Assembly (NCBI GenBank): GCA_913050115.1
Contig: CAJWZU010000003.1
Span: 1-64,000 of the forward strand
Source of the DNA: an uncultured Cellvibrionales bacterium
GTDB lineage: Bacteria; Pseudomonadota; Gammaproteobacteria; Pseudomonadales; Cellvibrionaceae
Length of the DNA stretch: 64,000 nt
Direction: 5' to 3'
Shown: piece by piece, positions 17,477-63,832 of the stretch
Numbering within the stretch: the first letter of the stretch is position 1
Layout of the letters: each line of letters opens with the position of its first letter
Program-made: the position numbers and the translations under genes
The notes under the pieces: generated by a model
The model's input: only the letters and a program-made list of their open reading frames with translations
Told to the model about the DNA's origin: nothing
The model's database searches: none

Positions 17477-18546
17477 AGGCTTTGTTGGTTGTCAGAAGAG
17501 TCGGCTTTGATATCGTTTTTAATATCGACCGAACTGGCTTGAGTAAATGGGTTGTGTAGCGCTGAATCCAGTGGGCGGCTGAAAGTACGCCCTAGCAGTA
17601 CTATACGCCCATCACGACTGTCTCGATAAAAGACGCTGTGCAGATAGGCATATTGTTGCTGGAATTGAGATTTTATCCAGACTTCAAAATATTCACTGTT
17701 AACAGAAATTCTTTGTTCATCTATTCCAGCGCCCGAAGCCATCTCTGACTCTAAAAACTCTTGGGTACTGGTAAAGCCATCAGGCAGTAATTCGCGGGCA
17801 GTAACGATCTTTTCAGGGTCAAGTTTACCACTTATCATAGCTAACACCGATATTGGCGCAGTATTAATGTTGATTTGAGTCATGCTTGGAAGCGTTGCCA
17901 CCAGAGGCGACAGTATCCTATAAGCTTCGAAGTCAATTTCAGCTACGGACAGTAGCTCTGAACTGTTAACGATGGACTGATTAGCTGCGCGATAACCTGG
18001 CGTTTTGTTTAAATAGCTGGTGTCCTCGCTGTAGTAGCCAATGGGGGTTGTATCGTTATCCAGCCAGTCAGCGATATTATTAGCTGCATTGCTTGCTAGG
18101 GATAACTTGCTCAGCAGGGCATTGAAGTCAATTAACTCGTCGGGATTAATCTTGCCGTCTTCATCGAGTAAGTTATTTAAATTATAGCGTGACTGTAAAT
18201 CCCTAATAACTATTTCAAATTCGCCGCCGTTATATTCTACGGGAATAATAACGCTATTCCATAATTCAGTTAAATGGTCATTAGCACTTGTCTTTGCATC
18301 TTCCTCGAAGTCATCAAAAAGTATTTGCCGAGCTAGAGACTCTGCGCCAAGAGCGTATTCATTGGCCTGTGCATTGTGTAGATAAAAACCAGTCTTGCGG
18401 ATATCCAGACCCATACGTTCAGTACTGTCCGCTGTCATAATAGTAATAATGGCAAAAATCATCAACATAGTGATGAGCGCGACACCGGTTTGACGATGTT
18501 GAGAGTGCTTTAGTAAGCGTTGCTGTAGGCGTGCATTGGATGTCAT
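17473..18546 (-). CDS. gspK: Type II secretion minor pseudopilin GspK
   Basis: A 357-residue minor pseudopilin, the large member of the pseudopilus tip with GspI and GspJ. The prepilin-like helix (QTGVALITMLMIFAIITI, residues about 19-36) lacks the Glu5 found in other pseudopilins, as is normal for GspK. The helix-hairpin-helix-type domain contains LNNLLDEDGKINPDEL and ININTAPISVLAMIS. The start overlaps the gspJ stop by 4 bp (ATGA). Confidence 0.93.
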   Translation of the reverse strand: MTSNARLQQRLLKHSQHRQTGVALITMLMIFAIITIMTADSTERMGLDIRKTGFYLHNAQANEYALGAESLARQILFDDFEEDAKTSANDHLTELWNSVIIPVEYNGGEFEIVIRDLQSRYNLNNLLDEDGKINPDELIDFNALLSKLSLASNAANNIADWLDNDTTPIGYYSEDTSYLNKTPGYRAANQSIVNSSELLSVAEIDFEAYRILSPLVATLPSMTQININTAPISVLAMISGKLDPEKIVTARELLPDGFTSTQEFLESEMASGAGIDEQRISVNSEYFEVWIKSQFQQQYAYLHSVFYRDSRDGRIVLLGRTFSRPLDSALHNPFTQASSVDIKNDIKADSSDNQQSL

Positions 18547-19340
18547 GGCCTTGATGTCTCTTCCTGTTCAGAAGCGCGGTCGCGGGACGTCTCGGTCTCG
18601 GTCCCGCTCTCGTTCTCATTGTCGCTCTCGCTCTCGCTTTGATCTTGATCTTGATCTTCTTGTTCTTGTTCTTGTTCTTCGGGTTTAGGTTTAGGTTGCA
18701 CTCTATTAATATTAATTATTCGAGTGAATTCACCCAGAGTTAAACTATTAAAATTAAATTCAACCATTACCGGTAAATCCCGATCTTTAGTTTCACTGAG
18801 TGAACTGGTGGGGGGCCACTTGTCAAACCATTTGCCAGTGATGTCGCGATAGCGAAAACGAATCTCTTCGAGGTCGCGCATAATGATTTGCTCTCGTGCC
18901 TCGCTATCTTGGCCACGGTCGAGCACCTGCCAGTAGCGCCGTACTAGATAGCTATTGCCATCATCGTCGCTGTCCAACTCATACTGTACTCGTTGTTGCG
19001 CGCTGCGAGGGTGCTGAAAAGGGTTGGCCCAACCTGATCGGGTGAAACTGACGCTGTCGCTTAGCCCTTTCATAGCACTTTCTTTATCGCCATATTCTCC
19101 GCGAATTGGGCGCGCAGCGGCTTGCTGAAAATCACTCAGAATAAGCCTCATGGAACGCTGCCAGTTGTACAGCTGCGACGAGTGAGCTTTGAGGCGACCC
19201 TGTGCACTAATTTCACTACTGAGTAACTGATAACTGCCGATCGCCAAAAAGGAAAAAATGCTGATAGCAATCATTACTTCCAGCAGGGTGAAGCCTATTT
19301 GGTAAGACTCTGAGAACTTGCGACTGTCACGGCTCATCAA
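18543..19340 (-). CDS. gspJ: Type II secretion minor pseudopilin GspJ with acidic repeat tail
   Basis: A 265-residue minor pseudopilin. The prepilin cleavage motif IGFTLLEVMIAISIF is at about residues 16-30, and the globular domain follows the family to about residue 220 (NFNSLTLGEFTRIININRV). The last 45 residues are extraordinary: alternating Glu/Gln, then Asp/Gln, then Ser/Glu, encoded by 6-bp tandem repeats (18588-18699). Typical GspJ proteins of about 190-220 residues lack this. The tail would lie in the periplasm at the pseudopilus tip. The gene overlaps gspI and gspK by 4 bp each. Confidence 0.92.
   Translation of the reverse strand: MMSRDSRKFSESYQIGFTLLEVMIAISIFSFLAIGSYQLLSSEISAQGRLKAHSSQLYNWQRSMRLILSDFQQAAARPIRGEYGDKESAMKGLSDSVSFTRSGWANPFQHPRSAQQRVQYELDSDDDGNSYLVRRYWQVLDRGQDSEAREQIIMRDLEEIRFRYRDITGKWFDKWPPTSSLSETKDRDLPVMVEFNFNSLTLGEFTRIININRVQPKPKPEEQEQEQEDQDQDQSESESDNENESGTETETSRDRASEQEETSRP
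18588..18699. repeat. Hexanucleotide repeat array in the 3' end of gspJ
   Basis: A run of related 6-bp units on the plus strand (CTCGCT/GTCTCG types, then GATCTT, then GTTCTT, then GGTTTA) that reads in frame on the minus strand as acidic dipeptides. Units are homogenised in blocks, as expected from replication slippage. Because the unit is a multiple of three, copy changes would lengthen or shorten the tail without a frameshift. Confidence 0.8.
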
Positions 19341-22077: not shown

Positions 22078-23901
22078 TTAGTCATTGTGTGTTACCCGTA
22101 AAACTTCTTCGACCGAGGTTTCACCTGCAAGGATACGGGCGATGCCATCGCCTCGAATCCCAGAACTTTTAGCTCGTGCACAGGCGGTGAGTTCGGCCTC
22201 AGAAGCGCGATTATGAATCAGACTACGCAGTTCTTCGTCGATATCGATTAATTCGTAGATGCCAGTACGACCGCTGTAGCCGTGCTGATTGCATTTTTCG
22301 CAGCCGTGCGGCCGGTATATAGTTGGCGGCTTAGTAATATCCAGTTGCAACATTTCGCATTCGGCTTTATCAGCTACATGGGTTTCTTTACAGTGTGGGC
22401 ATAAGGTGCGCACTAAGCGTTGTGCTAACACACCGATCAAGCTCGACGAGAGCAGGAACGGTTCAATACCCATATCTACCATCCGAGTGATCGAACCAAT
22501 GGCCGTGTTAGTGTGCAGCGTGGACAGCACCAGATGGCCGGTTAAACTGGCTTGAATAGCTATTTCGGCAGTTTCCAGATCTCGGATTTCGCCAATCATG
22601 ACTATGTCAGGATCTTGTCTAAGCATTGCGCGCAGGCTGCGAGCAAAGGTCATATCTGCCTTGGTGTTGACTTGTGTCTGGCCGATCCCTTCTAGGTTGT
22701 ATTCGATCGGGTCTTCGACGGTAAGAATGTTTTTAGCTTTGTCGTTAATGTGCGACAGACCGGCGTAAAGAGTGGTGGTTTTACCCGATCCTGTCGGGCC
22801 TGTTACTAGCATAATCCCGTGTGGTTTATGCAGCAGATTACTGAGGCGTTTTTCTTCCTCTGGCAGCATACCCATATTTGCCAGGTTTAAGCGGCCGGCT
22901 TGCTTGTCGAGTAGACGCATTACGATGCGTTCGCCATAGTTAGCAGGCATGGTTGAGACGCGTACATCGATTTCGCGACCACCGACTTTCAGTGACATGC
23001 GTCCATCCTGTGGTACACGTTTTTCAGCGATGTCGAGTTTGGACATAACTTTAATGCGTGAAATCAGTAACGGTGCCAGGGCACGTTTGGGTTGCACTGC
23101 TTCGCGCAATACACCGTCGATACGAAAACGTACAATTAAACGTTTTTCAAAGGTTTCGATATGTATATCTGAGGCACCCTGTTTAATGGCTTCGCTGAGC
23201 AGGGCATTGATTAAACGAATAATCGGGGCATCATCTTCTTGTTCGAGTAGGTCTTCGGTTTCTGGTACCGACTCTGCTAGGCTGGCAAGATCCATGTCAT
23301 CGCCTAACCCCTCCACCATTTGCATGGTGGCAGAGGAGTCTTTCTCATAAACACTGGTAAGTGCACGATCAAAATCGACCTCATCGACTCTTTCAAATGA
23401 CACAGGAAGTGCGCTTGCACGTCTAATCTCAGCCATGGCTTCTAGCGTTGGCGCTTTAGTGTAAATCGCGGTGGCGCGCAGTTCTTCACTGGATGCCGGT
23501 AGTAGCAAGACGCTAAAGCGTTTTACAAAAGCGAAGGGCAGCAGCGGTTGAGGTCCTCTGCTGTCGATCTCACCATCGGCTGAATCTTCTTGAATCTGAT
23601 CTGTGGTGTCGCTCTCGTGATCGAGCTCGCCATTGGCTGAATCTTCTTGAATCTGATCCGTGGTATCGCTCTCGTGATCGAGCTCACCATCGGCTGAATC
23701 TTCTTGAATCTGATCCGGGGTGTCGCTCTCGTGATCGAGCTCGCCATTGGCTGAATCTTCTTGAATCTGATCTGTGGTGTCGCTCTCGTGATCGAACTCT
23801 CCATTGGCTGAATCTTCTTGAATCTGACCTGTGGTGTCGCTCACGTCATCGAACTCGCCATCGGCTGAACCTTCTTGAATCTGATCTGTGGTGTCGCTCA
23901 T
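22078..23901 (-). CDS. gspE: Type II secretion ATPase GspE with repeat-extended N-terminus
   Basis: The cytoplasmic ATPase that powers pseudopilus assembly. It is 607 residues against about 500 usually. Residues 2-115 are six tandem acidic 19-residue repeats, and the normal N1 domain follows from about residue 118. The catalytic core has Walker A GPTGSGKTT (368-376), the Asp box around EDPIEY (396-401), Walker B (430-440, DPDIVMIGEIRD) and a zinc site of four Cys (501, 504, 534, 537). The core looks intact, so the ATPase should work. The extension would lie on the side that contacts GspL. Confidence 0.95.
   Translation of the reverse strand: MSDTTDQIQEGSADGEFDDVSDTTGQIQEDSANGEFDHESDTTDQIQEDSANGELDHESDTPDQIQEDSADGELDHESDTTDQIQEDSANGELDHESDTTDQIQEDSADGEIDSRGPQPLLPFAFVKRFSVLLLPASSEELRATAIYTKAPTLEAMAEIRRASALPVSFERVDEVDFDRALTSVYEKDSSATMQMVEGLGDDMDLASLAESVPETEDLLEQEDDAPIIRLINALLSEAIKQGASDIHIETFEKRLIVRFRIDGVLREAVQPKRALAPLLISRIKVMSKLDIAEKRVPQDGRMSLKVGGREIDVRVSTMPANYGERIVMRLLDKQAGRLNLANMGMLPEEEKRLSNLLHKPHGIMLVTGPTGSGKTTTLYAGLSHINDKAKNILTVEDPIEYNLEGIGQTQVNTKADMTFARSLRAMLRQDPDIVMIGEIRDLETAEIAIQASLTGHLVLSTLHTNTAIGSITRMVDMGIEPFLLSSSLIGVLAQRLVRTLCPHCKETHVADKAECEMLQLDITKPPTIYRPHGCEKCNQHGYSGRTGIYELIDIDEELRSLIHNRASEAELTACARAKSSGIRGDGIARILAGETSVEEVLRVTHND
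23557..23898. repeat. Six 57-bp tandem repeats encoding the GspE N-terminal extension
   Basis: Six consecutive 57-bp units fill codons 2-115 of gspE. Each codes for a 19-residue unit of the form SDTTDQIQEDSANGELDHE, with a few substitutions (T/P, N/D, L/F/I). The two outermost copies have diverged most, as usual in variable-number tandem repeats. The unit length is a multiple of three, so copy number can change without breaking the ATPase frame. Confidence 0.95.
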
Positions 23902-23915
23902 GGCATCGTCCTCGC

Positions 23916-25841
23916 TTATTCTTGCTCAGACGTGGTTGGCGCTTCTAATTGAAAGCGATCCTTTATCGGCAGCGCCGGCAATTCCTGCCCCAGAAACAAA
24001 GTATCAACTTTTCCGCGGAAATCCTTTTGATTTTCGCGCATGTACTTATAACGACTGAGCGATAATTCTCGGCTAGTCTCTTTGCTGCGAATTATTTTAG
24101 GGTGTATAAACAACATTAAGTTATTTTTAACCGTGACGTTCTTAGATGACTTGAACAGGTGGCCCAGCACAGGGATATCGCCTAGTAGCGGAACTTTATT
24201 TTCCGACTGGGTGATAGTGTCCTTAATCAGGCCACCTAAAACGAGAACCTGATCGTCTTCAACTAATACGCGAGTATTAAATTCGCGCTTACTAAAACGA
24301 GTATCCTCAGGGGTAGCACCTTCGCTAATATCGTTAACTTCTTGCTCAATAGCGAGTGTTAACGAGCCATCGTTGTTAATACGGGGGGTAATAGTAAGGC
24401 CTATGCCTATATCTTTACGCTCGAAGGTTTGGAACGGCGTATTGTTATTGGTTCCCTGACTAGAACCCGTTACTACACTGACGTTGTCGCCGACAAAGAT
24501 ACGGGCTTCTTCGTTGTCGAGGGCCATAATGGTGGGTGTAGACAGAATGTTGGCATTTTTATCACCGGCCAGTAAATTGATAACGGCGGTTATACCTTGA
24601 GAACCATTTAAATAGCCGAGTGAAAGGCCTCGAGCAACAGATGTAATCGGGTTGGTTGTAGGGTTGCTTCCTAACAATCCGGTTGGATTGCCGCCGGGGT
24701 AACCGGCTGTGCCGAGAACTTGATTGTTGTTGCCTAGAGTAGCCCATTCCACACCAACTTCAGTGCCAGAGCCTTCATTAACTTCAACAATGAGCGCTTC
24801 CACTAATACTTGAGCACGACGAACATCCATCGTTGCGATAACGCCTTTGATGGTGCTTTGAAGGGAGGGAGGAGCAGTGACGACGATGGCGTTTAGTTCT
24901 TCATTAGCTTGAATACTGAACTCTTCAGCTTCTGCCTGTGTGTTTTTATCACTGCGTTGTACGCTGCCGCTCATGCTCTCTAAAATTGGTGCAATGGTCG
25001 AGGCAGTGGCGTAGTTCAGAAAGTACACTTGAGTATTGCCATTACCCGCTAGTGGTTGGTCCAAACGTTGTGCGAGTTGACGAATTTGTGCGCGCATGGC
25101 AGGGTCGCCGCTGAGCAACAAACTGTTAGAGCGCTCGTCGGCAGCAATTGTGATACCTAATGAAGTACTAACTTTAGATGATGCGCTTGGAATCAGCTTT
25201 TGAATTACTTCCAATACGTCCTTAGCGCCGGCAAACTCTAGGCTTATCATCTCAATTTCAGCGCCGCCAGTCTGATCTATTTCCTTGATGATTCGCGCAA
25301 TCTTTTCGATATTACTGGCTCGATCGGCGATGATCAGTGAGTTGGTGGCGGGGTAGGCCGCCAAGTGCCCAACTTGCGGAACTAGTGGCCGTAGGATGTT
25401 AATTAGTTGAGTGGCGGCGACGTTTTCAACCTTGATAATCTGTACCACCATTTCTTCCGCACTGGCGCCGTTTTCACTAAGTAAAGGAATGGCTGACTGT
25501 TTGGCGAGTGCGTCGGGGATAATTTTAATCGATGTGGCCGTTTCAACCACAGAAAATCCATGTACCTGTAGAGTCGACAAAAATACCTGATATGCCTCAC
25601 CCTCAGTCATAGGGTCGCCGGCTATTACAGTGACCTTACCTTTTACATTAGGATGGATAATGATTGTTTTATCGGTGACATCCTGAGCCCAGCGAATTAG
25701 CTCCCTAACATCGGCGTTGTCCAACGTTAGCGATACTTTGCCCTGTTGTGCTAAGGCATCGCCAGACGTTAGCGCTATAGTTAAGGCCAGTACGCCATAA
25801 CGGATACATCTTGAAGTGGAGAGCTTTAATTTTTTTATCAT
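23916..25841 (-). CDS. gspD: Type II secretion outer-membrane secretin GspD
   Basis: A 641-residue protein that forms the outer-membrane channel. A signal peptide ends near residue 31 (SGDALA). The N0 domain follows (VSLTLDNADVRELIRWAQ), then N1-N3 domains with LINILRPLVPQ and LRSLS-type secretin repeats, and a C-terminal secretin domain (VEALIVEVNEGSGTEVGVEW to VPLLGDIPVLGHLF). It lies between gspC and gspE in the canonical order. Confidence 0.97.
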   Translation of the reverse strand: MIKKLKLSTSRCIRYGVLALTIALTSGDALAQQGKVSLTLDNADVRELIRWAQDVTDKTIIIHPNVKGKVTVIAGDPMTEGEAYQVFLSTLQVHGFSVVETATSIKIIPDALAKQSAIPLLSENGASAEEMVVQIIKVENVAATQLINILRPLVPQVGHLAAYPATNSLIIADRASNIEKIARIIKEIDQTGGAEIEMISLEFAGAKDVLEVIQKLIPSASSKVSTSLGITIAADERSNSLLLSGDPAMRAQIRQLAQRLDQPLAGNGNTQVYFLNYATASTIAPILESMSGSVQRSDKNTQAEAEEFSIQANEELNAIVVTAPPSLQSTIKGVIATMDVRRAQVLVEALIVEVNEGSGTEVGVEWATLGNNNQVLGTAGYPGGNPTGLLGSNPTTNPITSVARGLSLGYLNGSQGITAVINLLAGDKNANILSTPTIMALDNEEARIFVGDNVSVVTGSSQGTNNNTPFQTFERKDIGIGLTITPRINNDGSLTLAIEQEVNDISEGATPEDTRFSKREFNTRVLVEDDQVLVLGGLIKDTITQSENKVPLLGDIPVLGHLFKSSKNVTVKNNLMLFIHPKIIRSKETSRELSLSRYKYMRENQKDFRGKVDTLFLGQELPALPIKDRFQLEAPTTSEQE

Positions 25842-62678: not shown

Positions 62679-63832
62679 ATGCGTATAGGTGTAGTGAAAG
62701 AAATTAAAGCTCAGGAATACCGTGTAGCTATGACGCCCAGCGGCGCGCGCACTGGTAGCAAGTGGTCATCAGGTTTTAGTCGAGTCGCAAACTGGCACTG
62801 ACAGTGGTTTTGTTGATGCGGCCTACATCATTGCAGGGGCAGAAATAATGCTCTCGGCGAAGTAGGTGTTTGCGCGCGCTAATTTGATCGTGAAGGTGAA
62901 AGAGCCGCAGGCGAGTGAATGCAAAATGCTGCGCCTTGGACAGGTATTATTTACCTATTTACCTATTTACCTATTTACCAATTTACATCTGGCCGCATAG
63001 CCTCAGTTAACTCAGCTTTTGCGGGTATCAGGCGCCACCTGCATTGCCTACGAAATGGTTACCGATAGTCGTGGCGGCCTGCCTTTGCTAGCGCCTATGT
63101 CTGAAGTGGCTGGGCGTTTGGCGCTGCAGGCAGGGGCTTACCATTTACAAAAAGAAGTAGGGCGGCAAAGGAGTTCTACTGGTCGGTGTGCCTGGGGTAG
63201 CTCCGGCCTTTGTAGTGGTTATTGGCGCTGGAATAGTCGGCACTCAAGCTGCGCGTATGGCGCTAGGCTTGGGTGGGGATGTCACTGTTATAGATATATC
63301 GTTGCCGCGCTTAAGGGCGTTGGATAACGAGATCTCAGGTCGACTCCGAGCTCTTTATTTCACCAGTGCCTGCATTGAAGGGTGTGTGTTAAATGCAGAT
63401 TTAGTGATTGGCGCGGTATTGATTCCTGGTGCAACGGCGCCCAACTTGGTCAGTCGCCATTTAATCGCACGTATGTCAGCCTGCAGTGTGGTGGTCGATG
63501 TTGGTATAGACCAAGGCGGTTGCTTCGAGACATCTCGGCCCATAACACATTAAAACCCTACCTATACTGAAAACGGCGTGATTCATTACTGTGTCGCTAA
63601 TATGCCTAGCGGTGCTTCCCATACCGCCACTGTGTCACCTACAAATGCCAATTTACCTTTTGTGCTTGAAATGGCCAACATAGGAGTTAAAGAGGCGCTG
63701 CAGCAGCAGGATGATTCATTGGCGGCGGGGGTAAAGGTGTGTGCAGGGTCAATCGTCCATCCCGATGTTGCCGCTAGTTGAAAGGTTGCGGGTGAAACGT
63801 TGGACGAGGTGATTACTAAAGTTCTCATTTGA
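62679..63832 (+). pseudogene. ald: Alanine dehydrogenase pseudogene
   Basis: Pieces of alanine dehydrogenase (NAD-dependent alanine to pyruvate) lie in order but in three frames. MRIGVVKEIKAQEYRVAMTP starts at 62679. A frameshift near 62743 moves to a frame reading LVASGHQVLVESQTGTDSGF, which is interrupted by TAG at 62863 and TAG at 62998. A second shift near 63163 leads to the NAD-binding part (GVPGVAPAFVVVIGAGIVGT), followed by in-frame TAA at 63551 and TGA at 63779. The end reads DEVITKVLI and a stop at 63830. A 24-bp slippage insertion is also present. The gene cannot make a working enzyme. Confidence 0.93.
62951..62982 (+). repeat. Four 8-bp tandem units inside the ald pseudogene
   Basis: Three perfect copies and one variant of TTACCTAT. 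Compared with the family sequence LFTYLHLAA, exactly 24 bp (three units) have been added between the Tyr and Leu codons, which keeps the frame but inserts eight residues. Confidence 0.88.

Follow-up and report, generated by a model that had tools for sequence, protein, structure and literature searches.

The window, as we call the whole stretch of 64,000 nucleotides analyzed here from contig CAJWZU010000003.1 of an uncultured Cellvibrionales bacterium, carries on its minus strand a cluster of ORFs in the order of a gsp operon for type II secretion (T2SS), namely C, D, E, F, G, H, I, J, K, L, M. With the exception of gspE, the genes of this cluster were named by reading rather than by family search. 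The gspE gene (22078..23901, minus strand) encodes a type II secretion ATPase of 607 aa including its repeat tail, and its ATG lies 14 nt beyond the stop codon of a gspD-like secretin ORF (23916..25841, minus strand). The product has an N1E domain followed by a T2SSE domain: PF22341 (N1E) matches residues 121-185 (E 6e-13; 49.2 bits, cut-off 27) and PF00437 (T2SSE) residues 220-602 (E 2.6e-157; 523.7 bits, cut-off 24.9). Its best solved chain is 4pht_A, over residues 118-605, and 2bh1_X aligned to residues 120-200. Residues G368 to K374 and the cysteines C501, C504, C534, and C537, which we take to be the Walker A motif and the tetracysteine zinc motif of GspE, are invariant in an alignment of 25 sequences. 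The product resembles GspE/EpsE/PulE proteins in domain order, in Walker A, in its four invariant cysteines, and in a gene position that follows a gspD-like ORF within a gsp-like cluster.

Directly after the start codon, codons 2-115 of gspE form an array of six 57-bp units of 19 codons each, without indel or stop (23557..23898, minus strand). A GPQPL linker joins it to the N1E domain (23347..23541, minus strand), which binds GspL, so that the first-pass annotation was right to describe six in-frame units placed in front of the GspL-binding domain. Tandem Repeats Finder (TRF) reports the array at 23564-23899 with period 57, 5.9 copies, 92% matches, and a score of 553, the five remaining rows for the window scoring 50-71. 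Self-identity at an offset of 57 is 0.90, a level that none of 2000 shuffles approached (at most 0.35), and the units are 81-97% identical in pairs. The array, which occurs once in its own genome at the DNA level, consists of head-to-tail units within the 10-100 bp range, in frame and well above chance, and is an intragenic tandem repeat (minisatellite); with 57 bp equal to 19 codons, it lacks the unit length, not a multiple of 3, of a phase-variable switch turned on and off by frameshift.

All six units lie on the minus strand: unit 1 (SDTTDQIQEGSADGEFDDV; 23842..23898), unit 2 (SDTTGQIQEDSANGEFDHE; 23785..23841), unit 3 (SDTTDQIQEDSANGELDHE; 23728..23784), unit 4 (SDTPDQIQEDSADGELDHE; 23671..23727), unit 5 (23614..23670), whose peptide is identical to that of unit 3 with two synonymous differences in the DNA, and unit 6 (SDTTDQIQEDSADGEIDSR; 23557..23613). 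The outer ends of units 1 and 6 are diverged, a usual feature of terminal units in tandem arrays. All six units share QIQE, SA, and G14 without change, and position 16 is hydrophobic throughout (F/L/I). The closest pair of dimers is 3-4 and 5-6, with 5 differences in 105, which is only suggestive, at the level of sequence, of a history of multi-unit duplication. The array had been credited with 114 acidic residues; D and E in fact account for 42 of the 114, alongside 1 R, 0 K, and 4 H, so that acidic-rich is the appropriate description, and residues 1-115 carry a net charge of -41.

The ATG at 23901 is preceded by GAGG at 8 nt spacing. Between it and core residue ten, the only other in-frame ATG, GTG, or TTG is a GTG at codon 20, and nearly all of the array is therefore needed to make a GspE with an intact N1E start, barring a non-standard start codon. 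On this reading of the sequence the array is very probably translated. In an AlphaFold2 model of the gspE product, built from the window protein and 24 relatives (mean pLDDT 70.7, pTM 0.57), residues 1-116 have pLDDT below 50 and no secondary structure, with block means of 30-35 over residues 1-110, compared with 83-92 over N1E residues 121-180. The charge-hydropathy rule also classes the tail as disordered; the segment is long and polyanionic, and its disorder is predicted. Tandem repeats have been linked with protein disorder (PMC7230257, partial text). The array shares with intragenic minisatellites in disordered regions a unit that is a multiple of 3, a predicted disordered product, and diverged end units, but differs from them in that it sits in a core secretion ATPase. 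A limited literature search, short of most subscription papers, met no earlier report of an N-terminal array in GspE.

To place this tail among those of relatives, we surveyed GspE N-termini at 318 loci, of which 313 had the N1E start (the other five, L114-L118, being paralogues from the window's own genome); these gave 276 distinct cores and 274 assigned starts. The survey took in part of the many GspE matches listed; an automatic rule picked the starts, the 313 include at least one paralogue (L113, from the window's own genome), and long or repeated tails are over-represented because 80 loci were chosen for longer open frames. The tail before LPFxFAKR has a median length of 20 aa (quartiles 13.75-30, n=274); 12 of the 274 tails reach at least 60 aa and three at least 100 aa, namely the window (120), L219, and L334. 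We judged the long tails of L219, L334, L012, L069, and L121 to be artefacts of open frames or start choice, which in our judgement leaves the tail in the window as the longest trustworthy complete one among the 274. It is in these 120 residues ahead of the LPFxF start of N1E that the window protein departs from other GspE/EpsE/PulE proteins, and the extension is indeed as unusual as the first-pass annotation had held.

The comparison with relatives that the same annotation had proposed yields short, variable tails on the one hand and, on the other, a repeat restricted to one genome. The repeat peptide was found in only one of 390 genomes of the order, the window's own, which was the sole member of its genus available for comparison, and was absent from the 389 others searched. 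Outside its own genome the best match, 74% identical among 58 genomes searched (own included), is G013, whose GspE tail is 25 aa long (MPDAIEVTDELLAPVEVDAPQSPLK) and without the repeat. A methionine, one 19-aa unit, and GPQPL likewise make 25 aa, an ordinary tail length. Six relatives (L006, L051, L053, L060, L188, and L192) have in common the GspE N-terminal sequence [LM]ESYINSLLG, with TTG as its candidate start, and after it an acidic linker that varies in length and then RPLLPFPFAKR; judged from these sequences, [LM]ESYINSLLG is possibly a conserved N-terminal peptide motif that tips a variable arm.

Three GspE tails of the survey are clearly tandem: that of the window and those of L039 and L228, with L323 as a weak fourth case. 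In L039, from the Gammaproteobacteria MAG SZUA-228, 6-aa units of the LLPSAT type lead into LLPFAF (TRF period 18, 5.3 copies, score 129), with TTG start candidates within the repeats. In L228, from genome G607, 16 residues are exactly repeated at a distance of 61 in a frame that runs open over 104 codons as far as the contig edge; the contig starts within the repeat, and there are start candidates nearer the core, e.g., at 37 and 24. The start codons and the translated extent of these two arrays are uncertain. They resemble the window in having in-frame tandem repeats just before N1E and differ from it in their 6- and 61-codon units, in their sequences, in their uncertain starts, and, for L228, in being cut by a contig end. 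Since the unit sequences of the three are unrelated, they represent separate events at one place. Another genome of the same genus as G607, G727 (L252), has a tail of about 18 aa (two genomes of the family compared).

The genome itself is rich in tandem repeats. We compared 464 kb of it, made up of the window and 400 kb from 14 other contigs, with 694 kb of four relatives (G013, G034, G052, and G048), some stretches of which are short contigs. At thresholds that were fixed after the data were seen (period at least 30, score at least 150), there are nine arrays in the own-genome sample versus three in the relatives, and at a score of at least 300 seven versus one, the latter with 1.9 copies. 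Leaving out the window gives eight versus three arrays (binomial p = 0.016), six versus one at a score of at least 300, and six versus zero (p = 0.0024) once at least 2.5 copies are also required. Around gspE at 80 other loci (513 kb), TRF gives 29 rows, all with periods below 30. G013 nevertheless has a 66-bp array in frame inside an ORF (L340), so the propensity for repeats is not unique to the window's genome.

Three of the nine arrays lie within ORFs and have periods divisible by 3: that of gspE, one in the C-terminal part of an ORF that is presumably RNase E-like (L288 17088-17391), and one in D/H/E-rich segments of an ORF that we take to be receptor-like (L279 5516-6150). The other six, outside or at the edges of ORFs (L271 7133-7399 and 10361-10886; L272 5096-5429 and 6560-6833; L282 19238-19473; L285 12959-13286), have periods of 73-164 bp and 2.5-3.6 copies, with period mod 3 of 2, 2, 2, 0, 1, and 2; at E 1e-4 they have no cross-match among themselves or elsewhere in the 400-kb sample. 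A general process of duplication, with the reading frame acting as a filter, would leave just such a contrast in periods.

Perfect 7-8-bp repeats of at least four copies occur at four sites in the 464 kb and at none in the 694 kb. Three of the sites (62948-62986 of the window; L279 755-808; L285 16281-16332) are outside the larger nearby ORFs, and the fourth (L283 1-63) is at a contig start. The heptamer AGATGCT has two sites in the whole genome and is found in one of 57 other genomes (G008, at a contig start). Within the gsp cluster, short repeats also make up a charged, low-complexity stretch at the end of the GspJ-like ORF (18543-18690, minus strand; EEQEQEQEDQDQDQSESESDNENESGTETETSRDRASEQEETSRP), the last 50 residues having a net charge of -14. 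With two repeat-built tails in one cluster, a common cause other than chance might be suspected.

We consider it probable that the array is a tolerated in-frame duplication of a disordered GspE tail in a repeat-prone genome. An ancestral short, poorly conserved, and disordered tail of about 25 aa, containing one unit, would have been amplified to six copies in tandem, through slippage during replication or through unequal recombination, with the high array load of the genome as the setting. As methionine, unit, and GPQPL amount to an ordinary tail, duplication of the whole ancestral tail is the simplest history. The duplication would have been tolerated because 57 bp keep the frame, no fold is broken, and the tail precedes N1E at a place where length varies anyway. 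The product would be one long polyanionic disordered tail per GspE subunit around the ATPase-GspL hub, with a probably small effect through excluded volume and charge and no dedicated switch. As a counterpoint, the invariant QIQE, SA, and G14, the hydrophobic position 16, and a pN/pS of 0.44 pooled over 15 pairs of units could reflect selection on the peptide; likeness of the units would also be expected of a young array, and the pairs being non-independent, the pooled ratio does not establish strong purifying selection on the unit. We rejected a mobile or horizontally acquired repeat on the grounds that the array occurs once in its genome and its peptide in no other of the 390 genomes. The array had no plasmid match at E 1e-3, and a 24-base piece of its unit had no exact match in viral contigs.

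It has also to be considered that the six-unit tail is a functional acidic arm, which modulates the GspE-GspL-GspF hub by spacing, by repulsion, or by capturing a basic partner, for instance GspF, and whose copy number tunes secretion, the latter being the proposal of the first-pass annotation. Such a role would fit the exceptional length of the tail, by our own judgement of which tails to trust, and the composition and hydrophobic position 16 kept among the units, as well as the prevalence of net acidic tails in the survey (148 of the 227 of at least 10 aa) and the recurrence of long acidic ones, e.g., in L183, L184, L192, and L228. Of the partners considered, the GspF-like ORF as a whole is basic (net +4, pI 9.1), but its first 170 residues are net -3, and the cytoplasmic part of GspL is net -18 with a pI of 4.4. 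Attraction to GspL or to this part of GspF is therefore not suggested, and we disfavor electrostatic docking of the tail on GspL; repulsion or spacing is possible, six tails adding about -246 charges per hub by simple arithmetic from -41 each. N1E and GspL form one-to-one pairs in the core complex of Klebsiella, where they were modelled as decorating the ATPase hexamer (PMC6882859, partial text). Retention of XpsL by GST-XpsE in a pull-down suggests that binding of GspL can survive a bulky addition, presumably at the N-terminus (PMC11981180, partial text). With a 25-aa tail sufficient in G013, we regard a functional arm as rather unlikely.

On a broader scale, the tail before N1E may be an evolvable site where in-frame arrays are repeatedly gained and lost by separate lineages; the length and charge of a polyanionic brush around the T2SS ATPase hub would be set in this way, and secretion output thereby adjusted. 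This proposal is compatible with the three unrelated arrays, and with the pair of genomes from one genus of which only one has an array, but we hold it to be quite unlikely.

There is a small chance that the array is real but that its copy number, or part of it, is a product of draft assembly. Tandem repeats are a known source of assembly errors (PMC6868369, partial text), the source genome is in 100 contigs, one of which (L283) begins within an 8-bp repeat, and the L228 contig of another genome begins within its gspE repeat. The first-pass annotation had named a short-read artefact as one outcome that would undo its proposal. An artefact is not favored for the existence of the array, since its units differ from one another, save for the shared peptide of 3 and 5, and it has other sequence on both sides in a single contig, with the frame intact; the copy number of six is uncertain in a draft assembly and could be wrong.

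Translation from a non-standard CTG just ahead of LPF would place the array outside the working protein. An SD-like AGAGGA, read by eye, stands 9 nt before this CTG, but CTG starts are rare, the 114 codons of the array are open in frame, and ATG 23901 has its own GAGG at 8 nt, which makes such a start very improbable. We reject as scarcely credible the idea that the repeat is a ligand-binding or folded element, e.g., EF-hand-like loops around DSADGELD, for although the D-x-S-x-D/N-G-x-hydrophobic spacing of the units presumably resembles part of a calcium loop, EF loop position 12 would be Ser in the inner units, residues 1-116 have no Pfam match at E up to 1, the tail is disordered in the model, and GspE is cytoplasmic.

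Under the preferred explanation, that of a duplication tolerated in a repeat-prone genome, a core secretion motor has in one lineage come to carry an N-terminal tail about six times as long, with its ATPase core still whole, and the tail is thereby identified as a place where tags or linkers can be accommodated. On the same explanation, the general repeat proneness of a genome can be mistaken for gene-specific regulation. Were copy number to tune secretion, the T2SS would have in the array a simple rheostat open to evolution.
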